The notes under the pieces: generated by a model | Database searches by the model: none | Told to the model about the DNA's origin: nothing | The model's input: only the letters and a program-made list of their open reading frames with translations | Source of the DNA: Planctomicrobium sp. | GTDB taxonomy: Bacteria > Planctomycetota > Planctomycetia > Planctomycetales > Planctomycetaceae | Assembly (NCBI GenBank): GCA_018659505.1 | Contig: JABJMI010000247.1 | Coordinates: 1-10,943 of the forward strand | Reading direction: 5' to 3' | DNA length: 10,943 nt | Made by a program: the position numbers and the translations under genes | Shown: in pieces, positions 2,529-10,943 of the stretch | Layout: each line of letters starts with the position of its first letter | Numbering within the stretch: position 1 is the stretch's first letter

Positions 2529-2558
2529 TTGACACCTATGATGGCAACTACATAGCAT
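2529..2558 (+). promoter_or_regulatory. Candidate sigma-70 promoter for the TonB-like/Exb operon
   Basis: A perfect TTGACA (2529-2534) is followed after 18 bases by TAGCAT (2553-2558), which matches four of six -10 positions. It is placed to give an untranslated leader of about 145 nt to the ATG at 2710, or 80 nt to the ATG at 2644. It is the only near-consensus promoter I see in front of the operon. Planctomycete promoters are not always canonical, so this is tentative. Confidence 0.35.
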
Positions 2559-2709
2559 TTTTTATAACATCCATCACTTGTGCGACAGGGATTCTCTCTG
2601 CAACCACTTTGGTTCACAATCAATAACAAACATTTCTTTCAATATGCTTGCATCGAATCAATTAATTCGCCGGAATACGTCCGCAGCAGCGAACGTACCT
2701 GAACCAGCG

Positions 2710-3546
2710 ATGAAAGTGAACAGCTTTGATCGCGTAAGTGCGGGGATGATTGCGTTCGTTTTTGGATTGATCCTAGTCGTAGCGGGAATTGTCATTTGGT
2801 GGCTGACAACTCGTCCTCCACGTACGCAATTCCTGACACCGATGGAAATGGTTGAAGTCGGTGGTGAAGAAGATGGCTCTCCTGATGAGACGCTGCAGCT
2901 AGAGTCTCCGGAGGATCCTACGGAAAATCCATCACCGACAGATGAAGTGATGGAAGAAACAGAGTTGACTGAGCTCGTTGAGGATGTTGTCGAGCTTGCA
3001 GACAATGCAACTCAACAAGTGAACGCAATTCCCGTCGCCAAACCGGGGAACCCTGGGAGTGCGGTCGGGACAGGTCGAGCGCGCCTCGGTAATGGTCCGG
3101 GGAATGCCGTTCCGAACGAAGAACGGTGGTATATCAAGTATTCCGACAAAACTTCGGTCGACGAATATGCCAAACAGCTGGATTTCTTTGGCATTGAAAT
3201 GGGAGCACTGTTACCGACGGGGCAATTAGCCTTGCTGTCCAATATGAGCACGAGTCCTAAAAAGGCAACCAAGAGTTCCGGCAAGGGAGAAACCCGTCTC
3301 TACATGACTTGGCAGGCTGGTAACCGCAAAGCTGCAGACGAAACACTGTTCAAGAAAATTGGAGTCGATGTCTCCAATGCGATTTTGTTCCACTTCTACC
3401 CTAAGAAAACGGAACAGATGCTCCTACAATTAGAGTTCGATTATAAAAAACGGAAAGCTTCCGAAATTCGCAGGACGTATTTCGTCGCTGCCAAAAAAGG
3501 TTCGGGCTTTCAATTTGTTGTCACAAAACAGACATATATGAGATAA
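2710..3546 (+). CDS. TonB/TolA-shaped single-span membrane protein with unrecognised C-terminal domain
   Basis: Starting at ATG 2710 it is 278 aa. Residues 1-11 are cytoplasmic, the membrane span is at about 12-33 (AFVFGLILVVAGIVIWWL), then come an acidic Pro/Glu-rich linker (50-100), a Gly/Asn/Pro-rich segment (108-136), and a compact C-terminal domain (about 137-278) beginning RWYIKYSDKTSVDEYAKQL and ending FQFVVTKQTYMR. This layout matches TonB/TolA energy transducers, and the ExbB- and ExbD-type genes follow directly. I see no TonB C-terminal signature, however, and do not recognise the domain. A TonB-like transducer role is therefore inferred from topology and context. The start is uncertain: ATG 2644 adds 22 polar residues, and neither start has a Shine-Dalgarno; 2710 is chosen because the span follows closely. 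It is probably the first gene of the operon, 127 bp before the proton-channel gene. Confidence 0.7.
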   Translation: MKVNSFDRVSAGMIAFVFGLILVVAGIVIWWLTTRPPRTQFLTPMEMVEVGGEEDGSPDETLQLESPEDPTENPSPTDEVMEETELTELVEDVVELADNATQQVNAIPVAKPGNPGSAVGTGRARLGNGPGNAVPNEERWYIKYSDKTSVDEYAKQLDFFGIEMGALLPTGQLALLSNMSTSPKKATKSSGKGETRLYMTWQAGNRKAADETLFKKIGVDVSNAILFHFYPKKTEQMLLQLEFDYKKRKASEIRRTYFVAAKKGSGFQFVVTKQTYMR

Positions 3547-3673
3547 GCACTTTCGTGTTGCATCTGCCCGTACAGATTGCGTTTCTTTAGCTAGAACGCA
3601 CTCCTCAGCGAGGCAGGGCACGAAGGCAATTTTAGAAAACACATTTCAGCCAAGAAGACTAAAGGCGTTATCA

Positions 3674-4321
3674 ATGGAACTCATTCTCAGTTGGGCTGGA
3701 CCGGTCATCTATGTCTCGATGGCACTCGCTGCTTTATTTGGAGTGTTTTGTGCTGTCCTTTTGTTTCGTAAGATTTCGCAAAAGCGTTTCTCCAACGCTG
3801 CTCGTTCAGCGGAGTTTCTTGATGAAGTCCGAGATTTACTTTACCAACGGGATTTCGATGGAATCGTCGAGGTTTGCGACTCTCCCCCTTATTGGAGTAA
3901 AGCTCTGGCACAAATGATCCTGGTTGCTTTGGCGCATCGCGACCGAGGACTCTCTAAATTGCGAGTATTACTGGCTGAGAAATACGAACGAGACGTTCTT
4001 GCTGACCTCGAATATCGCTTTTCCTGGATCGGAACAATTGTCAAAACGGCTCCCATGTTAGGACTATTGGGAACGGTTTCAGGTATGATTTTGGCGTTCG
4101 CGAAAATAGCGACGGCATCGGAAAGTGGAGTGAATCCTGCCGACCTTGCTTCAGACATTAGTTTCGCACTCTTCACGACTGCCTGTGGACTGATGATTGC
4201 CATTCCGCTGACGATGTTGGCGGCGGGTGTACAGATTCAGAAAGGTAAAATGACCGACGCTGTTCAGGAGAACCTTAGTGAGTTTCTGCATGATCTCGAG
4301 AAAGTCATGGCAGAAGGCTAA
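3674..4321 (+). CDS. MotA/TolQ/ExbB-family proton channel subunit
   Basis: This 215-aa inner-membrane protein forms the proton channel together with ExbD-type subunits. Three spans are visible at about 9-31, 118-145 and 163-187, with the large cytoplasmic region between the first two as in ExbB/TolQ. The family motifs are APMLGLLGTVSGMILAF (126-142, Thr134) and FALFTTACGLMIAIP (164-178, Thr169); these Thr residues correspond to the pore threonines of E. coli ExbB and TolQ. Length is usual for the family. A weak Shine-Dalgarno-like AAAGG (3661-3665) lies 8 bases before the ATG, the best in the operon. ExbB, TolQ or a distinct planctomycete subtype cannot be separated by eye, so no symbol is given. 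The first exbD follows after 53 bp. Confidence 0.93.
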   Translation: MELILSWAGPVIYVSMALAALFGVFCAVLLFRKISQKRFSNAARSAEFLDEVRDLLYQRDFDGIVEVCDSPPYWSKALAQMILVALAHRDRGLSKLRVLLAEKYERDVLADLEYRFSWIGTIVKTAPMLGLLGTVSGMILAFAKIATASESGVNPADLASDISFALFTTACGLMIAIPLTMLAAGVQIQKGKMTDAVQENLSEFLHDLEKVMAEG

Positions 4322-4374
4322 TCCGTAATATCAGAACTAATTTGGTTTCAAGTAGCCGTATTTAGGACAACCAC

Positions 4375-4812
4375 GTGGCGTCTACGTTTGGGAAAAGTAA
4401 ACGAATCGAATCTGACGACGATGATCTGGATATTACTCCGATGATCGACGTGACGTTCCTACTTCTGATTTTCTTCATGGTCACATCGAACATGAAGAAA
4501 GCTGCGACCGTCAATATCCCGCCTGCCAAACATGGAATGGGAGTTCAGACTTCGAAATCGTCAACGATCACGATCTTCAATACTGATAGTGATCCCGAGA
4601 TTTATCTCTCTGATGGAACAAAAGAGAACGGTCCCGTTTCTCCAGAAGAAGTAACAGCGTTTGTTGAACAAGGAGTCGCTGAAGGGAAGTTGAATGTCAT
4701 TCTCAAAGCGGACAGTGACTTGCCTTCTGGGTTTGTCGAAGAAGTTGCGCGCGCAGCAAACGAAGTCGAAGCAGAACTACAGTTTTTCGTTGGCGTAATG
4801 GATAAACAGTGA
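4375..4812 (+). CDS. ExbD/TolR-family subunit (first copy)
   Basis: This 145-aa protein starts at GTG 4375; a later ATG would remove the membrane span, so GTG is the likely start. Residues 1-19 are a short cytoplasmic tail rich in Asp (DDDDLD at 14-19). The signature DITPMIDVTFLLLIFFM (19-35) contains the channel aspartate at residue 25, as in E. coli ExbD. A periplasmic domain (about 45-145) follows, with the ILKADSDLP strand typical of ExbD/TolR. It should assemble with the proton channel encoded 53 bp upstream and convert proton flow into motion of a partner. It is a standard-architecture paralogue of the zinc-ribbon ExbD encoded next. There is no Shine-Dalgarno. Confidence 0.92.
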   Translation: MASTFGKSKRIESDDDDLDITPMIDVTFLLLIFFMVTSNMKKAATVNIPPAKHGMGVQTSKSSTITIFNTDSDPEIYLSDGTKENGPVSPEEVTAFVEQGVAEGKLNVILKADSDLPSGFVEEVARAANEVEAELQFFVGVMDKQ

Positions 4813-4820
4813 GGCAATCA

Positions 4821-4848
4821 GGAGTTAGGAACTAGGAATTGGGAATTA
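4821..4848. repeat. 7-bp tandem repeat just after the first exbD
   Basis: Four consecutive heptads are directly readable: GGAGTTA / GGAACTA / GGAATTG / GGAATTA, beginning 8 bases after the exbD stop codon. Period and purine-rich strand resemble the heptads at 922-956, but these units carry A/T-richer cores. It lies in opposite orientation to the array at 4865-4971 in the same gap. Confidence 0.7.
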
Positions 4849-4864
4849 GTAAAAAGTTAAGACC

Positions 4865-4971
4865 ATAGACTCTCAACCCTCTTTCTCCCAAACCAATTTT
4901 CACCCTTGCCCCTCAACACTAGAAACTTGACCATAAGAAGACCCTAGCCACTCAACCCTAGTCCCTAGACC
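4865..4971. repeat. Degenerate 7-bp repeat array before the zinc-ribbon exbD
   Basis: Read on the minus strand from 4971, heptads include GGTCTAG / GGACTAG / GGTTGAG / TGGCTAG, and further along TGTTGAG / GGGCAAG / GGTGAAA and GGTTGAG / AGTCTAT. It contains segments matching the ftsQ-leader array (4898-4922, 23 of 25) and the ddl-leader array (4865-4881, 16 of 17), so it joins both variants. It ends 8 bases before the ATG at 4980, in the same orientation relative to the gene as at ddl and ftsQ. Units between these blocks are poorly kept. Confidence 0.7.
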
Positions 4972-4979
4972 ATATTTTA

Positions 4980-5693
4980 ATGCCCATACTGTTTCGCTGC
5001 TCCAATTGTGGAAAGAAACTTAGCATCACTCGTAAAAAAGTGGGGCAGGAAGTCACGTGTCCGGAATGTGTTCATCGCATCAAAGTTCCCGTTCCTAAAG
5101 AACTTGAATCTACATTTGATGCGGAGGCTGAAGAGGAGGCATCGGAGCAATTAGAGGTCGTTCATGGAGATGTTCCAGAACCAAGCGAAGCAGAGATCAA
5201 AGCGGAGTGGCAAGAGAAGAAAAATCCATGGATTGAGGGTGACGAAGACGAAGAAGAGGACTTCAGTTTAGGGCCAGCCGACTTGGAAGAGTCGGGGCTC
5301 GATATGACGCCGATGGTGGATGTGACATTCCTGTTGTTGATTTTCTTCATGATTACAGCTTCCTTTAGTATGCAAAAATCGATGCAAACGGCACCTCCTG
5401 AACCCGATGAGGATGGGGTCTCGCAGTCGGTCTCGATGGAAGAACTTGAAGAGGAATCGGTTGTTGTCGAAATCGATGAGGAAAATAATATCCGTGTCGA
5501 CGATGTCCCGGTCTCTGGAACAGGCGAATTGACTGACGTTTTAGTCGCTAAAATTAGCAATGAAGGCAAAACAGAAATGTTGATTGAAGCACACCCCAGT
5601 GCAAGGCATGGACTCGTTGTGGCAGTCACCGATTCTGGTATCGAAGCACAAATGCAGCGAATTCGACGTTCCATCAAGAAGGCTGACGACTAA
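4980..5693 (+). CDS. ExbD/TolR-family subunit with N-terminal zinc ribbon (second copy)
   Basis: This protein has 237 aa. Residues 5-36 form a CxxC...CxxC zinc ribbon (Cys7, Cys10, Cys27, Cys30) in the style FRCSNCGKKL...VTCPECVHRIKVP. A strongly acidic linker runs from about 40 to 105. The ExbD signature DMTPMVDVTFLLLIFFM (108-124) carries the channel Asp at 114. A periplasmic domain (about 145-237) follows, ending in a helix (MQRIRRSIKKADD). With the span oriented as in ExbD, the zinc ribbon and acidic linker are cytoplasmic, where they could bind a partner or regulate the motor. It lies 167 bp after the first exbD, with a repeat-filled gap. Ordinary ExbD is about 140 aa, so the N-terminal 100 residues are an addition. 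The ATG is unambiguous because the zinc ribbon starts at once; there is no Shine-Dalgarno. Confidence 0.9.
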   Translation: MPILFRCSNCGKKLSITRKKVGQEVTCPECVHRIKVPVPKELESTFDAEAEEEASEQLEVVHGDVPEPSEAEIKAEWQEKKNPWIEGDEDEEEDFSLGPADLEESGLDMTPMVDVTFLLLIFFMITASFSMQKSMQTAPPEPDEDGVSQSVSMEELEEESVVVEIDEENNIRVDDVPVSGTGELTDVLVAKISNEGKTEMLIEAHPSARHGLVVAVTDSGIEAQMQRIRRSIKKADD

Positions 5694-5774
5694 CTGGCTA
5701 AGCAAACAGATGCTGAACTCAAACATTACAAGAATTTAAAGCCCCAAAGACTCCAAAAGAAGCCCGCTTGAAGA

Positions 5775-8700
5775 ATGCCCTTTCTTGAAATTATTCACAT
5801 GACTGGCGAGATCGATCAGCGAAAGTTGTCTAAACAACAACCGCTGACAGTCGGGAGTCATGCGTCGACAGACATCGTTATCGATGAAGACGACGTAGAG
5901 ATCATGCACTGTCGTGTCAGTTGGGGAAAGCAAGGCTATGAAGCTGTTGCAGCCGGGACGGAACCAATCTCGGTCAATGGGAATTTAGTAAAGAACGCGA
6001 CTCTGAAAGCAGGGGACGTACTTCGATTTGGGACTGTCGATGTTCGATATCGAGAAAGTGCCGACGACGGATTTGGTGGGGCCGTCGAACAAAACGATGG
6101 AAATGAATTGGGATTGAAACCGTTAACAGGTGAGTTCGAATCACCTCGACCAACGGCTTCACAAAAGGCGAAATCTGCTGTGGATGAAATCAACGAAGAC
6201 GACATCATCGACGACGATTTGGAAGTCATCGATGACCTCGATGTGATCGATGAAGAGGACGAGATCCCCTCTGGTGGGGGAAGTCTCGCTGATGGTTTAG
6301 CCGCTTTGGCGGCTGCGGAAGGCCAATCTGAGACGCCGGCGACAGGTTCGAAATCGAAGAAGAAATCAAAGCCCAAGCCCAAGCCCAAGCCAACTCCAGC
6401 AGCTAAGCAGAAAAACCCTGCAAAGCCAGCAGCAACAAAATCATCGACCCCCGCAGCGAAAGCCAAGGAACCAGCTGCATCGCCCAAAGCTCCAATTGCC
6501 AAAGATGATGGCATGAGTCCGCGGATGCGAGAAGCGATGCGTAATCAACGCCGTCGCCCTGGTGAAGAGGATCCGTTGCGTTCACCATTGGTCTTAGGGC
6601 TTGTGGGGGGAGCCGCAGCGTTGGCTCTGACCGGCTTGATCTTCTTCTTTATCGCCTCTAGGCAAACCACGCAGCAAAGATATGATCAGGCAAAGGCAGT
6701 CTACGACGAAGGTAAGTTTCAGAACGCGATTACCGAATTTCAGAATTTCATTATCGCCCACCCACGGCAGGATTTGACCGAAGAAGCGAAGACACTGATG
6801 GGACTTGCCAAAGTTCGTCAGCAAATCGAAAGCGCGACTCCGGATTTCCCCGAGGGATTGGATCAGTTGAGGATCTTCATCAGAGATAATTCGGATCGTG
6901 AGGATGCTTTCGAAGCACTTCATCCGGAGATTGTCAGACACGCCCGCACGATTGCACTCGAAGCAGCTGTGACAGCTGGGAAAAGATTTGATGAAGAGCT
7001 TCTCAAAATTTCAAGCGACGCACGGACAATCCTTAATACCTACGCTCCTAAAGACTCGCCTCCGACTGAAACGCTGAACCAGATTGAGGCGTCTCTACGG
7101 GCTTCAAAAGCAATGATTTTGAAGAACAGCGTCTTCAAAGAACATTTGGCGCGAATGGAGAAAGCTCTCTCTGACGAGGATCCTTCTAAAACTTCACCGC
7201 TTGAAGCAATGAAAGCGCGTCGGGACTTATTGGTTCGTTACCCCCGCAAGTCTCCGAATGATCGAACTTCATTCGAAACGAACAAAGAGATTGTGAGCAA
7301 TTTCAACAAGGCGATAGAATTAGAAAAGAAGAAGGTTGTTTCGAGTGATAACGATACACCGGCTCTTGTTGATGATCATTCCATCGACGCGAAATCCCTC
7401 ACTTTGGCATTTCATGGACGTACCAAAATCGATGAAGTTTCGGTCGGCAAGTCTGTTATTGTGGTCGCCAAAGACTGCTGCTACGGAGTCGACTTCGTCA
7501 CGGGCGAACCGATATGGCGTCGAGTCATCGGATTCGATACTCCGTTCTTCCCACTTCAGGAAGCACAACTTCCGAGTGTTGTTCTCTTCGATACGAACAA
7601 TCTCGAACTTGTTCGACTCAACCAAACAACAGGGCAGCTCGTCTGGCGATTACCGATCAATGATTTTGCGTTTGGTCAGCCATTGTTGGTCGACAAAACA
7701 GTTTATCTCTCCACTGAATCTGGTCGTCTATTGGCGGTAGATCTGGAGACCGGTCTGCTCGCTGGCGAGTTACAATTCTCGCAACCGATCTCTGGACCAG
7801 TGCAACTCAAGGACGATCAGTATTTGTTCGTCGCTGGAAATGAAGAAGTTAGCTATACGTTATCCAAGCGTCCCTTTGCCTGTACTCAAGTCTCATATCT
7901 TGGTCATCAACCGGCTTCCATCGCGGCACCGCTCCTGGAGATGGGGCCATATGTATTGATGATCGAGAACAAAACTGATTCGGCTTCCTTAAGATTACTT
8001 GACGTTTCCGATCCCAAGGTTGCGGTCACTCAAGTCTCTTCCGAGACTGTTGGCAGTCGAGTGATTGACCAACCGGTCATCCGTGGTCGAAATCTTTTTG
8101 TGCCTGCAACAGGTGAATCGATTCATGTCTTTGCGATTTCAGACGATCCTGGCCAACCACCAATGACCACTGGTCCGATCTTTGACGGACAAGGGACTAA
8201 AGGAGAAAGTATCAATCTTTTGACTGGTCCGAATGGACAAGTCTGGATGTCAACTGATGCTCTGAACCGATTACAACTAACAACCGATTCGCTACAACCG
8301 GATGGGAATCCCTCAGCAGCCGGAATTGCAACTCAACCTCTGCAAATGGTCTCTGGTTTTCTACTAAACGCTCGCCGTCGTCCCTTTACAGATGCCGTGA
8401 CTTTCACTCGTACGAACCGCGAGGACATGACAAGTGACTGGCAATCCGTTTTAGGAGGCAAACTCCTTGCAACAACGGGCAGCTCAGGTGATTCGATTAA
8501 CATGGCTTCTGTCAACGAAGCTGGTCACGTTTTCCGAATCGGTTCCAAGCAATTAGCTGACGGGAAATTCGTCACCGATGCAACGGTACGACTTCCACTG
8601 AATCCTGACCTTGAAACGCCTCTCATTGGGGCAGCTGTCGCTGGAAATCGACTTGCTGTTGCATGTGGCAATCCAGAACCACGTTTATGGATCATTAACG

Positions 8701-9446
8701 CTGCCGGTCAAATCGAAGGTTCACCGCGTATCCCGGAACCTCTTCAAGCCTCTCCGAGTTCTATCGGAGACCGCATTGTCTTGCCAATGAAAGGTCGACT
8801 CAGCGTCGCCCGCTTATCAGGTCAAGCTGCGGTCCAAGATTTCATTCTTCCTTCCGGTGAAGAACAGGAATGGAGAAGTGTCGTCCCAGCTGGTGAAGAC
8901 CAAGTTGTTGCAGTTACGAAATCAGGGTTGGTCTTACTGCTTAAGCTGCAAGCTTCACCAAGACCTCATTTAAGTGAAGTCGCTCGACTTGAACTGGGAG
9001 CCAAAGTTTTGTTTGAGCCAGCTGCCAATGACAAGATGGTCGCAATAGTTGACGCTTCAAAGAAAGTTACTTTGTTTGACACCGTCCGCCTCGATCAAAT
9101 CTCCAGTCGGCAATTCGATCAGCCTTTAACAAACCATCCATTCATTGTGAACAATCTGGTTGTCGTCGAGGCTGGCAGTCAAACAATGCACGCCATGTCC
9201 TTTGAGCAATTACAAGACAGCTTCACACTTCCTCTGAATTCGGTTTCGCTAGCGGGAATCACTCAACTTGATTCAACTTTGTATGTGGCACAACAAAACG
9301 GGAAAATTCAACTGCTAAATGCGAGCTCAGGTGAAGTCACGAAAGCATACACGCTGAATTCCATCCTCAGCGATGGAGTCATTCGTGCTGAAGAGGAACT
9401 GTTTTTTGTCGCTGTCGATGGTACGCTCTTTCAATTAGGTCAATAA
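5775..9446 (+). CDS. Large membrane protein: degenerate FHA domain, one span, periplasmic TPR and PQQ-type beta-propeller
   Basis: The product has 1223 aa. Residues 1-95 are FHA-like: LTVGS (24-28), VEIMHCRV (41-48), SVNG (66-69), LKAGDVLRFG (77-86). Next are an acidic stretch (137-164, DDLEVIDDLDVIDEED), a Lys/Pro/Ala linker (about 191-245, with KPKPKPKP at 199-206), a basic juxtamembrane segment (NQRRRP) and a span at about 272-294. After the span comes a TPR-like hairpin (302-350, YDEGKFQNAITEFQNFI), then about 190 mostly helical residues, then a beta-propeller from about 540 to the end with PQQ-type blades (VDFVTGEPIW 572-581, TTGQLVW 618-624, VDLETG 655-660). The basic segment predicts FHA inside and propeller in the periplasm. 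It probably scaffolds or senses for the adjacent Exb motor; this is inference. The FHA lacks the phospho-binding Arg (Ser28 instead) and the following Ser (Glu42). Its stop is 18 bp from the next gene. Confidence 0.85.
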   Translation: MPFLEIIHMTGEIDQRKLSKQQPLTVGSHASTDIVIDEDDVEIMHCRVSWGKQGYEAVAAGTEPISVNGNLVKNATLKAGDVLRFGTVDVRYRESADDGFGGAVEQNDGNELGLKPLTGEFESPRPTASQKAKSAVDEINEDDIIDDDLEVIDDLDVIDEEDEIPSGGGSLADGLAALAAAEGQSETPATGSKSKKKSKPKPKPKPTPAAKQKNPAKPAATKSSTPAAKAKEPAASPKAPIAKDDGMSPRMREAMRNQRRRPGEEDPLRSPLVLGLVGGAAALALTGLIFFFIASRQTTQQRYDQAKAVYDEGKFQNAITEFQNFIIAHPRQDLTEEAKTLMGLAKVRQQIESATPDFPEGLDQLRIFIRDNSDREDAFEALHPEIVRHARTIALEAAVTAGKRFDEELLKISSDARTILNTYAPKDSPPTETLNQIEASLRASKAMILKNSVFKEHLARMEKALSDEDPSKTSPLEAMKARRDLLVRYPRKSPNDRTSFETNKEIVSNFNKAIELEKKKVVSSDNDTPALVDDHSIDAKSLTLAFHGRTKIDEVSVGKSVIVVAKDCCYGVDFVTGEPIWRRVIGFDTPFFPLQEAQLPSVVLFDTNNLELVRLNQTTGQLVWRLPINDFAFGQPLLVDKTVYLSTESGRLLAVDLETGLLAGELQFSQPISGPVQLKDDQYLFVAGNEEVSYTLSKRPFACTQVSYLGHQPASIAAPLLEMGPYVLMIENKTDSASLRLLDVSDPKVAVTQVSSETVGSRVIDQPVIRGRNLFVPATGESIHVFAISDDPGQPPMTTGPIFDGQGTKGESINLLTGPNGQVWMSTDALNRLQLTTDSLQPDGNPSAAGIATQPLQMVSGFLLNARRRPFTDAVTFTRTNREDMTSDWQSVLGGKLLATTGSSGDSINMASVNEAGHVFRIGSKQLADGKFVTDATVRLPLNPDLETPLIGAAVAGNRLAVACGNPEPRLWIINAAGQIEGSPRIPEPLQASPSSIGDRIVLPMKGRLSVARLSGQAAVQDFILPSGEEQEWRSVVPAGEDQVVAVTKSGLVLLLKLQASPRPHLSEVARLELGAKVLFEPAANDKMVAIVDASKKVTLFDTVRLDQISSRQFDQPLTNHPFIVNNLVVVEAGSQTMHAMSFEQLQDSFTLPLNSVSLAGITQLDSTLYVAQQNGKIQLLNASSGEVTKAYTLNSILSDGVIRAEEELFFVAVDGTLFQLGQ
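6369..6391 (+). repeat. In-frame AAGCCC hexamer repeat encoding Lys-Pro
   Basis: AAGCCC is repeated 3.8 times (6369-6391) inside the FHA/propeller gene and encodes KPKPKPKP at residues 199-206. The units are identical at the DNA level, which suggests recent slippage. It sits in the linker before the membrane span, so its length may vary between strains. Lys-Pro runs are stiff and extended, as in TonB linkers, but here the topology puts them on the cytoplasmic side. Confidence 0.85.
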
Positions 9447-9464
9447 GGTTTCATAGCTGAATCC

Positions 9465-10943
9465 ATGAAGTATTTTTTGACGCTCAATTTGTTCTTGGTA
9501 CTGGTCGGTGTCGCGTATGCGCAACCTGAAGGCGAAGAGGAACAACTTCCGACCATCGAAGAAATAGCTCTGCCTTCTGTGCAGGATCTGCTTACTAAAA
9601 CCCCAATGGATTGGATCGTTCTGAACACTGGGGGTGTCCTGACTGTTGAAGCTTTGGTCCCTCGACCGAATACGCTGGAGGCAAGAGATGAGGAAGTTAA
9701 ACTTCTCGAAGCAGAGCGTCAAAAGACTCCCGCCAATCAAAGACAGCGATTCATCGATGAATTAAATGATCTGAAGTCCTTAAATGTTACGCTTCCCAAT
9801 GTGCAGGGGAATCCAGAATTCAAACTTCCGATCCGTCAGATTGTTGAAATTATCCATCACGAAGATCTTGTGATCAGACGCATCAACGAGTTGCTGAAAG
9901 AAAACAAAATCGATCCTGCACTGGAACTTCTTAGTCGCTTGCGACAAAACTGGGACACTTGGCCTGGGATGGACGAAGCTCAGGTTGCGATTATCTTCAC
10001 TGATGCCAAGAAGAGAATTGAAGAGGGAAACGCAGCCAATAGTCTCATGTTGCTGGATGAAGTTTACCGTCTCAATAAAGGCTATTTACCGTTACCAAAT
10101 CAAACGGGGATTGCGATTCGACAGTTACTTGAGAAAGCATTCGCTAAAGAAGACTATCAGGAGGCACAGTTTTACCTGAACTGGATTTCGCAACGATTTA
10201 CAGACCACCCCGTCTATCAGGAATTCAGCCAACAACTTTTTGACAAATCTCAAGATTTACTCGTGAAAGCCGATCAATCCAGCCAGGCGAGTGAATACAA
10301 AATTGCATCTGAATTGGTTGACGAAGCCGCCCGGATTTGGCCGCGACATCAAGACTTGCGTGGGCCTCACCGGACGCACTTTGAAAGGTTTCAGCGATTG
10401 AAGGTAGGTGTTGTCGATCTTCCCGGTAACAGCGATGCCTACTTCGCATTATCGCCTGCAGAGTTACGTCAGCAAAGAGTCACGAAGTTAACTCTTTTTG
10501 AGTTGGACCGTTTACGTGATGGAACTGCCTACTATCGAACTCGTTTCTTTGATGAATGGGAACCGACCGATCTCGGTCGTGAAATGCGATTCACGCTAAA
10601 GCAGTTTCGGCAACCGTACGAAATGCAGGCTGTCCTAACGACTGCGGAGATCGTCCCGCTCATCCTCAATCGACTTGACGAAAACCATCCCGATTATGAC
10701 GAACGTCTTTCAGCTTATGTCAGCTCAGTCGAAATTCATTCACCAATGGAATTCTCACTGACTTTTAGTCGCGTTCCTCCAAGAATTGAACCGCTCTTGG
10801 CAAGTGTAGTCGTCAAGGTTGCAGATGAGAAACTTCAAGAAGAACTCCTCAGCGATCCCGGAGGATTCCAGACGTCTCATCAAGACGACACAAAAATTAC
10901 CTACACTCGTAAACTGCCTGAACCAGACAGTCTACCCAAGTAT
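9465..10943 (+). CDS. Secreted protein: helical N-terminal half and probable family-5 solute-binding domain, 3' end cut
   Basis: The frame is open from ATG 9465 to the right edge: 493 codons with no stop. Residues 1-19 are a signal peptide (MKYFLTLNLFLVLVGVAYA) with a likely AYA/Q cleavage, so the protein is periplasmic or exported. Residues 20 to about 300 are largely helical with repeat-like elements (IDPALELLSRLRQNW; EEGNAANSLMLLDEVYRLNKGYLP; EDYQEAQFYLNWISQRF) resembling TPR units. From about 325 the sequence resembles the N-terminal part of a peptide/nickel-type (family 5) solute-binding protein: TKLTLFELDRL, YYRTRFFDEWEPTDLGREMRFTLKQF, TTAEIVPLILNRL, VSSVEIHSPMEFSLTF. This assignment rests on pattern only and is moderate. 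The gene starts 18 bp after the FHA/propeller stop, so the two are almost surely cotranscribed. No ABC permease or ATPase is in the window. Alternative: a pure scaffold without ligand. Confidence 0.75.
   Translation, partial: MKYFLTLNLFLVLVGVAYAQPEGEEEQLPTIEEIALPSVQDLLTKTPMDWIVLNTGGVLTVEALVPRPNTLEARDEEVKLLEAERQKTPANQRQRFIDELNDLKSLNVTLPNVQGNPEFKLPIRQIVEIIHHEDLVIRRINELLKENKIDPALELLSRLRQNWDTWPGMDEAQVAIIFTDAKKRIEEGNAANSLMLLDEVYRLNKGYLPLPNQTGIAIRQLLEKAFAKEDYQEAQFYLNWISQRFTDHPVYQEFSQQLFDKSQDLLVKADQSSQASEYKIASELVDEAARIWPRHQDLRGPHRTHFERFQRLKVGVVDLPGNSDAYFALSPAELRQQRVTKLTLFELDRLRDGTAYYRTRFFDEWEPTDLGREMRFTLKQFRQPYEMQAVLTTAEIVPLILNRLDENHPDYDERLSAYVSSVEIHSPMEFSLTFSRVPPRIEPLLASVVVKVADEKLQEELLSDPGGFQTSHQDDTKITYTRKLPEPDSLPKY

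Follow-up and report, generated by a model that had tools for sequence, protein, structure and literature searches.

A planctomycete gene cluster that appears to encode an undescribed proton-driven envelope machine, in bacteria mostly without the usual TonB and Tol-Pal systems

Does a row of planctomycete genes for a membrane motor and several large envelope proteins encode one machine, and what would this machine do? The window that we analysed is one entire contig of 10,943 bp (JABJMI010000247.1) from a Planctomicrobium sp. assembly (GCA_018659505.1; 4.65 Mb, 951 contigs, 75% complete), and related proteins occur in named relatives which include Thalassoglobus, Planctomicrobium, Gimesia, Maioricimonas and Caulifigura. 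The envelope of planctomycetes, which are diderms, is unusual. According to our analysis, the cluster in this window, kept among planctomycetes, appears to encode an undescribed proton-driven envelope machine in bacteria that are mostly without the usual TonB and Tol-Pal systems. We consider it fairly probable that the products form one proton-driven, envelope-spanning machine with a motor of the TolQR/ExbBD type, whose likeliest job would be the upkeep of the outer membrane or envelope.

Six open reading frames (ORFs) follow one another on the + strand, with gaps of 127, 53, 167, 81 and 18 bp when the start of gene 1 is put at 2710, and the ORF coordinates returned both the same-strand set and the five gap lengths that an earlier sequence-only reading of this DNA had given. 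The genes encode a TonB/TolA-shaped protein (gene 1, TonBl), one ExbB/TolQ-like and two ExbD/TolR-like motor subunits (genes 2 to 4), a 1223-residue protein with an FHA domain and a propeller (gene 5, FHAprop), and a secreted protein in which TPR repeats are joined to a family-5 solute-binding protein (gene 6, TPRSBP). One ExbB, two ExbDs and the FHA/propeller protein had been named in that reading, and Pfam agrees on all of them (MotA_ExbB, ExbD twice, FHA with PQQ_2). The unit was there taken to consist of six genes; all six are present, but the unit that is conserved among relatives has seven to eight, with g7 and g0 added.

The motor is the best defined part. Gene 2 (3674..4321, + strand) matches MotA_ExbB with 73.7 bits against a cut-off of 22.9 (E 1.5e-20), while gene 3 (ExbD1; 4375..4812, + strand, GTG start) and gene 4 (ExbD2; 4980..5693, + strand) match ExbD with 60.9 and 75.7 bits against a cut-off of 25.4 (E 1.7e-16 and 4.4e-21); gene 4 also carries an N-terminal zinc-ribbon motif (Zn_ribbon_8, 0.0011, below cut-off). 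The membrane aspartate of ExbD and the threonines of ExbB, which we take to be functional residues, are conserved: the motif TPM[IV]DV is kept in the alignments of ExbD1 (TPMIDV) and ExbD2 (TPMVDV), and in ExbB T121, T134, T168 and T169 do not vary across all 8 rows. The motor had been described as of ExbB/ExbD type, which holds at the level of Pfam families, but by score it lies nearer to TolQ/TolR: the best NCBIfam scores of gene 2 are tolQ 58.8, exbB2 50.0 and exbB 37.9, and tolR is best for both ExbDs (all far under cut-off), and in a PDB sequence search the best values for gene 2 were 58.2 bits for TolQ and 44.6 bits for ExbB.

Is the arrangement of these genes more than chance? In all our counts "class" means Planctomycetia by inference, some of the compared genomes (those with G numbers) are incomplete, and the ORFs of compared loci were called mechanically by a script. 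Gene 5 is found in the genome of the window and in 34 of 39 relatives (not in G020, G026, G027, G031 and G035), which makes 35 of 40 genomes. The six genes are contiguous in 19 of these 34 relatives, and the arrangement is therefore more than chance. Six others have a consistent order cut by contig ends (G005, G007, G008, G015, G016, G029), and in nine the order is split. Five of the nine have the motor displaced and TonBl, gene 5 and gene 6 together (G012, G025, G030, G034, G038); in two TonBl and the motor stand apart from genes 5 and 6 (G032, G036); in G006 TonBl is not beside the rest, and in G039 the cluster is weak and dispersed. ExbB is still found, with 179-225 bits, in the seven genomes where the motor is displaced or genes 5 and 6 are separate. 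Non-conservation of gene order, which the sequence-only reading had named as one outcome that would speak against it, was thus not seen; the order is kept in several families, and the parts usually persist where the cluster splits.

On a larger scale, among 294 genomes of the phylum the ExbB subfamily (at least 199.9 bits) was present in 47 of 52 genomes of the class and in 0 of 242 outside it, where the best match had 111 bits. With "strong" defined as at least 179 bits for ExbB and at least 133 bits for TonBl, cut-offs chosen after seeing the gap in the lists, 82 of 119 class genomes have a strong ExbB and 84 a strong TonBl, namely the same 82 with G241 and G303. The other 35 comprise 31 genomes of family f3 together with G338, G345, G365 and G379. 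Family f3 holds TPRSBP-like matches and, in 9 of 15 genomes, a distant gene 5 of 150-221 bits, and a TonBl-like gene adjoins ExbB-ExbD-ExbD in 3 of the 6 f3 loci that were read (L114, L126 and L142; not L113, L115 or L141). One genome with a complete cluster, G021, has in addition a second, divergent ExbB-ExbD-ExbD-propeller set (L069:4876-10607).

What would the motor act upon? Gene 1 probably starts at the ATG at 2644 and not at 2710, because a listed protein with 99% identity, P0069, has 300 amino acids; the gene then occupies 2644..3546 on the + strand and its product would also have 300 amino acids. In an AlphaFold model (residues counted from 2710; mean predicted local distance difference test score, pLDDT, 71.5; predicted template modelling score 0.50) a transmembrane (TM) helix at residues 5-34 (2722..2811, + strand) is followed by a low-confidence linker at 47-131 and a folded C-terminal domain at 136-276 (3115..3537, + strand; block pLDDT 74-92), and this predicted order of an N-terminal TM helix, a disordered linker and a folded C-terminal domain is the topology of TonB and TolA. 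By sequence, gene 1 has no family match over cut-off in Pfam or NCBIfam, TonB_C gives no match at E 0.1 in 12 of 12 TonBl members, and comparison by hhalign with E. coli TolA (Prob 0.4) and E. coli TonB (Prob 0.3) reveals no relation; a fold comparison for the C-terminal domain gave result rows occupied by the TM helix. Taken together, these searches point to a transducer family that, by sequence, lies outside TonB/TolA. Two TonBl-like genes stand in tandem before ExbB in G345 (L118:4549-7545).

The answer to the question of the job depends on what the class lacks. Of 60 class genomes none gave a TolB_N match and 10 gave TonB_C, all ten also with TonBl, whereas among 14 known genomes used as controls either search was positive in 3; no TonB_C was found in the searched genomes of the window's genus. 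It agrees with the available part of a published account in which Tol-Pal is described as largely reduced in Planctomycetes (PMC8871954). The cluster resembles Tol-Pal (TolQ, TolR, TolA, TolB, Pal, CpoB) in its motor, TolQ/TolR-like by the best NCBIfam and PDB scores, in a TolA-shaped protein and in a periplasmic propeller with TPR repeats; it differs in that gene 1 has neither TolA relation nor the SHLS motif, in having two unlike TolR-like subunits, and in that the propeller is PQQ-type and fused to FHA and TPR in a class without TolB_N matches. With TonB-ExbB-ExbD it shares motor families and transducer topology, and it differs from that system by its two ExbDs, by a gene 1 without TonB_C or relation to E. 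coli TonB, and by the absence of a receptor gene among the few flanking ORFs scanned. Another near case is that of the von Willebrand factor A (vWA) force transducers, which, according to the available text of PMC12204202, also occur in the PVC group, have TonB/TolA topology with an unrelated C-terminal domain and are encoded beside tolQ-like and two unlike tolR-like genes; unlike gene 1, which has no Pfam vWA match and no SHLS, they carry a vWA domain and many of them SHLS, and the partner sets differ. The sequence-only reading did not recognise a described system here, and we likewise found no description of the cluster in the open-licence PMC literature; it is not described in the available parts of PMC12204202, PMC8871954, PMC12505986, PMC10632474 and PMC3169522, and in the Planctopirus paper on essential genes (PMC10632474) the main text, as far as available, does not mention ExbB, ExbD, TolQ or FHA.

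We propose that the TolQ-like channel (ExbB) and the two unlike TolR-like subunits (ExbD1, ExbD2) would use proton flow, and that the force would pass to gene 1, TonB/TolA-shaped with its own kind of C-terminal domain. The force would pass as well to a complex in the periplasm, made up of the TPR-SBP5 protein of gene 6, the TPR and propeller part of gene 5 and the product of g7, a gene situated beyond the window contig; either partner may be the one that moves. The cytoplasmic ends of ExbD2 and gene 5 would form one docking or signalling platform, and the role in upkeep would be Tol-Pal-like. Our best reading is that such a machine may work like Tol-Pal or like the Agl-Glt machinery of Myxococcus, and we file it under neither. 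More tentative, and in our opinion possible but doubtful, is the suggestion that the cluster is the class's own Tol-Pal/TonB replacement, a further kind of trans-envelope machine with a new transducer family, in which FHA, zinc-ribbon, GYF-like and Ser/Thr-kinase modules are swapped on ExbD2 and on the propeller protein as on a plug-in platform and let cytoplasmic signalling control the motor.

The one-machine reading, made already from the sequence alone, is favoured by the order that is kept and by the parts that persist after splits, but several points weigh against it. A close ExbB is missing from three genomes that do have downstream parts: from G241 and G303, where TonBl, a gene 5-like gene, TPRSBP and g7 are present, and from G338, where gene 5 and TPRSBP are present. 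Because of these three genomes the coupling of the motor to its partners may not be obligatory. In family f3 the gene 5 matches reach at most 114 bits in 6 of 15 genomes, and most copies are weak and scattered. The upkeep role, likeliest as it is, has as its sole basis what the class lacks. Finally, SHLS, the motor-binding motif in the TM helix of TonB/TolA transducers according to the available part of PMC12204202, was sought in 67 rows of TonBl (55 + 12) and found in none, and therefore the known TonB/TolA mode of motor binding does not apply; the description of gene 1 as TonB-shaped stands for its modelled topology but not for family membership or this motif.

Could the cluster serve uptake instead, with the family-5 solute-binding protein capturing a solute or peptide and the motor powering its entry through the outer membrane, as in TonB-dependent import? 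Gene 6 (9465..10943, + strand) is truncated by the contig end, as the window is the whole contig: 493 amino acids are visible, and a near-identical full-length copy, P0001, has 794. SBP_bac_5 is present in 14 of 14 aligned TPRSBP members, and the C-terminal half of gene 6 matches the solved structures of NikA, DppA and similar proteins, which, with the modelled TonB/TolA topology of gene 1, would suit such import. Compared to DppA and NikA, gene 6 is fused behind a TPR region, and in the alignment to DppA (hhalign 98.4%) the segment is gapped that holds the aspartate which presumably anchors the amino end of the peptide in DppA; because of this gap the alignment favours a scaffold over a peptide receptor, so from the two roles foreseen for the last protein the former is preferred and the latter, for a peptide at least, is not. 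No permease, ABC ATPase or receptor was found among 10 flanking ORFs at 4 loci, the rest of the genomes not being searched, and the genus of the window gave no TonB_C. With an altered binding protein and no transporter or receptor among those ORFs, uptake becomes the less likely explanation, and we hold it to be improbable.

The conserved unit also takes in two further genes, g7 and g0. In an all-against-all comparison g7 follows gene 6 directly, and with the same orientation, in 36 loci. A hidden Markov model finds it at 37 of the 46 loci that have TPRSBP; it is missing from L036 (contig end), L043, L046, L120 and five f3 loci. No Pfam match was obtained for g7 in 4 of 4 scanned. The same comparison places g0 immediately ahead of TonBl in 17 loci. 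Of three g0 proteins scanned, all gave HEAT-type matches and two gave weak squalene-cyclase-like ones; in the window the position ahead of TonBl is occupied by a divergent D-Ala-D-Ala ligase gene (ddl).

Still less probable, to our mind, is that two separate systems are merely neighbours. One would be a motor that serves some other partner; the second, a set for signalling or scaffolding made of gene 5, gene 6 and g7, might descend from a receptor kinase whose sensor was a propeller. It would be logical to think so from family f2, where the motor is apart, from f4, where gene 5, gene 6 and g7 are apart, from the three genomes without a close motor, and from gene 5 itself, which carries a kinase in two lineages and, in further ones, a pre-kinase domain. 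However, the split points differ by family and the parts mostly persist after each split, and ExbD2 as well as gene 5 can carry kinase and zinc-ribbon modules.

These modules deserve a closer description. Gene 5 (5775..9446, + strand) is predicted by Pfam and hydropathy to have a cytoplasmic FHA domain (residues 25-86, 5847..6032, + strand; E 2.3e-7), a TM helix by hydropathy (residues 276-294, 6600..6656, + strand) and a periplasmic part with TPR repeats (YfiO-like match under cut-off) and a PQQ-type propeller (PQQ_2 6.7e-15; best stretch residues 566-661, 7470..7757, + strand). At the positions which we take to be those of the usual phosphothreonine-pocket Arg and Ser the FHA domain has Ser28 and Glu42; the Arg is present in 9 of 34 locus rows and the Ser in 3 of 34 (two of these rows are unrelated FHA proteins having both, and three are duplicate records), and among database proteins the counts are 7 of 79 and 0 of 79. 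Since the usual pocket residues are mostly replaced, strict phospho-reading by this domain is not claimed; as an alternative, a YscD-type structural FHA (PF16697) scores 29.4 bits against a cut-off of 33.2.

Judged by motif, 26 of 41 loci have a zinc ribbon on ExbD2 and two (L046, L052) a Ser/Thr kinase; in these two gene 5 is without FHA. The ExbD2 of f2 and f4 has a GYF_2-like module, under cut-off, in 4 of 6 scanned (E 0.004-0.014). Among 51 loci with gene 5 it bears FHA in 28, a kinase in L118 and L122, and a domain of about 70 residues in seven including L122, and the loci in none of these classes include two cut by contig ends. The latter domain, found in f5, f7, f8, f10, f73 and f74, is related to a planctomycete kinase N-terminus (E 5.7e-6 to the stand-alone kinase L037_43). 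Gene 5 has a zinc-ribbon motif in L068, in L120 and in 5 of 6 further f3 loci, Pfam concurring under cut-off in 2 of 2 scanned. There are exceptions to a simple module rule: L049 has neither FHA nor ExbD2 kinase, the ExbD2 of L121 is without a module, and none was found on gene 5 of L116. Since kinases and zinc ribbons occur on either protein, we infer that the cytoplasmic ends of ExbD2 and gene 5 sit together.

Planctomycetes have many kinases, and those seen at the loci are recorded here in their own right. The N-terminal Ser/Thr kinases on ExbD2 are at L046:9661-11088, an ORF as assembled without the kinase start, and L052:5092-6711; the two loci stand apart on the gene 5 tree with group support of 0.86 and 0.82, which is moderate, and the two kinases are alike by eye, so two certain fusion events are not claimed. 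In two relatives of gene 5, L122:9173-13603 and L118:9670-14118, a Ser/Thr kinase replaces FHA. A convergent Ser/Thr kinase gene lies directly behind g7 in six loci (L037:17095-18669, L062:14472-15869, L063:3530-4939, L122:17940-19304, L123:14240-15610, L128:16198-17556), and in L104 a kinase gene is just upstream of TonBl; with no background rate for comparison, we do not claim such neighbours as parts of the system.

The least likely of the alternatives is an Agl-Glt-like machine for trafficking, adhesion or motility. Its motor would drive a complex in the periplasm, and a regulator would dock on the cytoplasmic FHA, zinc-ribbon and GYF-like modules; the GYF_2-like module on ExbD2 would suit it, but we know of no gliding in planctomycetes. 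According to the available part of PMC3169522, Agl-Glt (AglR, AglQ, AglS, GltG) and the cluster have in common a single TolQ-like subunit with two TolR-like ones, an FHA protein of the inner membrane and TPR proteins, but GltG (640 amino acids) unites FHA with a TonB C-terminus, while here FHA is on the TPR-propeller protein, the transducer is separate and no TonB_C is found; neither SBP5 nor a propeller is named there among the Glt parts.

Few other signals accompany the cluster. A weak promoter-like site, TTGACA-18-TAGCAT (10 of 12), lies upstream of gene 1 at 2529..2558 on the + strand, and such sites are not commoner in the region than in shuffles (5 found, mean 8.6); no + strand terminator-like sites were found in the five gaps, and no Rfam family reached threshold in the window. 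The divergent ddl gene is at 1103-2074 on the - strand, and it is likewise divergent in L036, L038 and L039, not in L037. Behind it, at 3-920 on the - strand, is a gene for a protein that looks FtsQ-like by eye and position only, with homologs behind ddl in L036, L038 and L039 and no Pfam family at E 0.1.

If the one-machine reading is right, the cluster is a concrete candidate, with defined subunits, for the coupling of inner-membrane energy to the outer membrane, and this candidate role matters because the class has so few TonB_C and no TolB_N matches. The cluster also points to fusions of Ser/Thr kinases with a motor subunit or with its neighbour.

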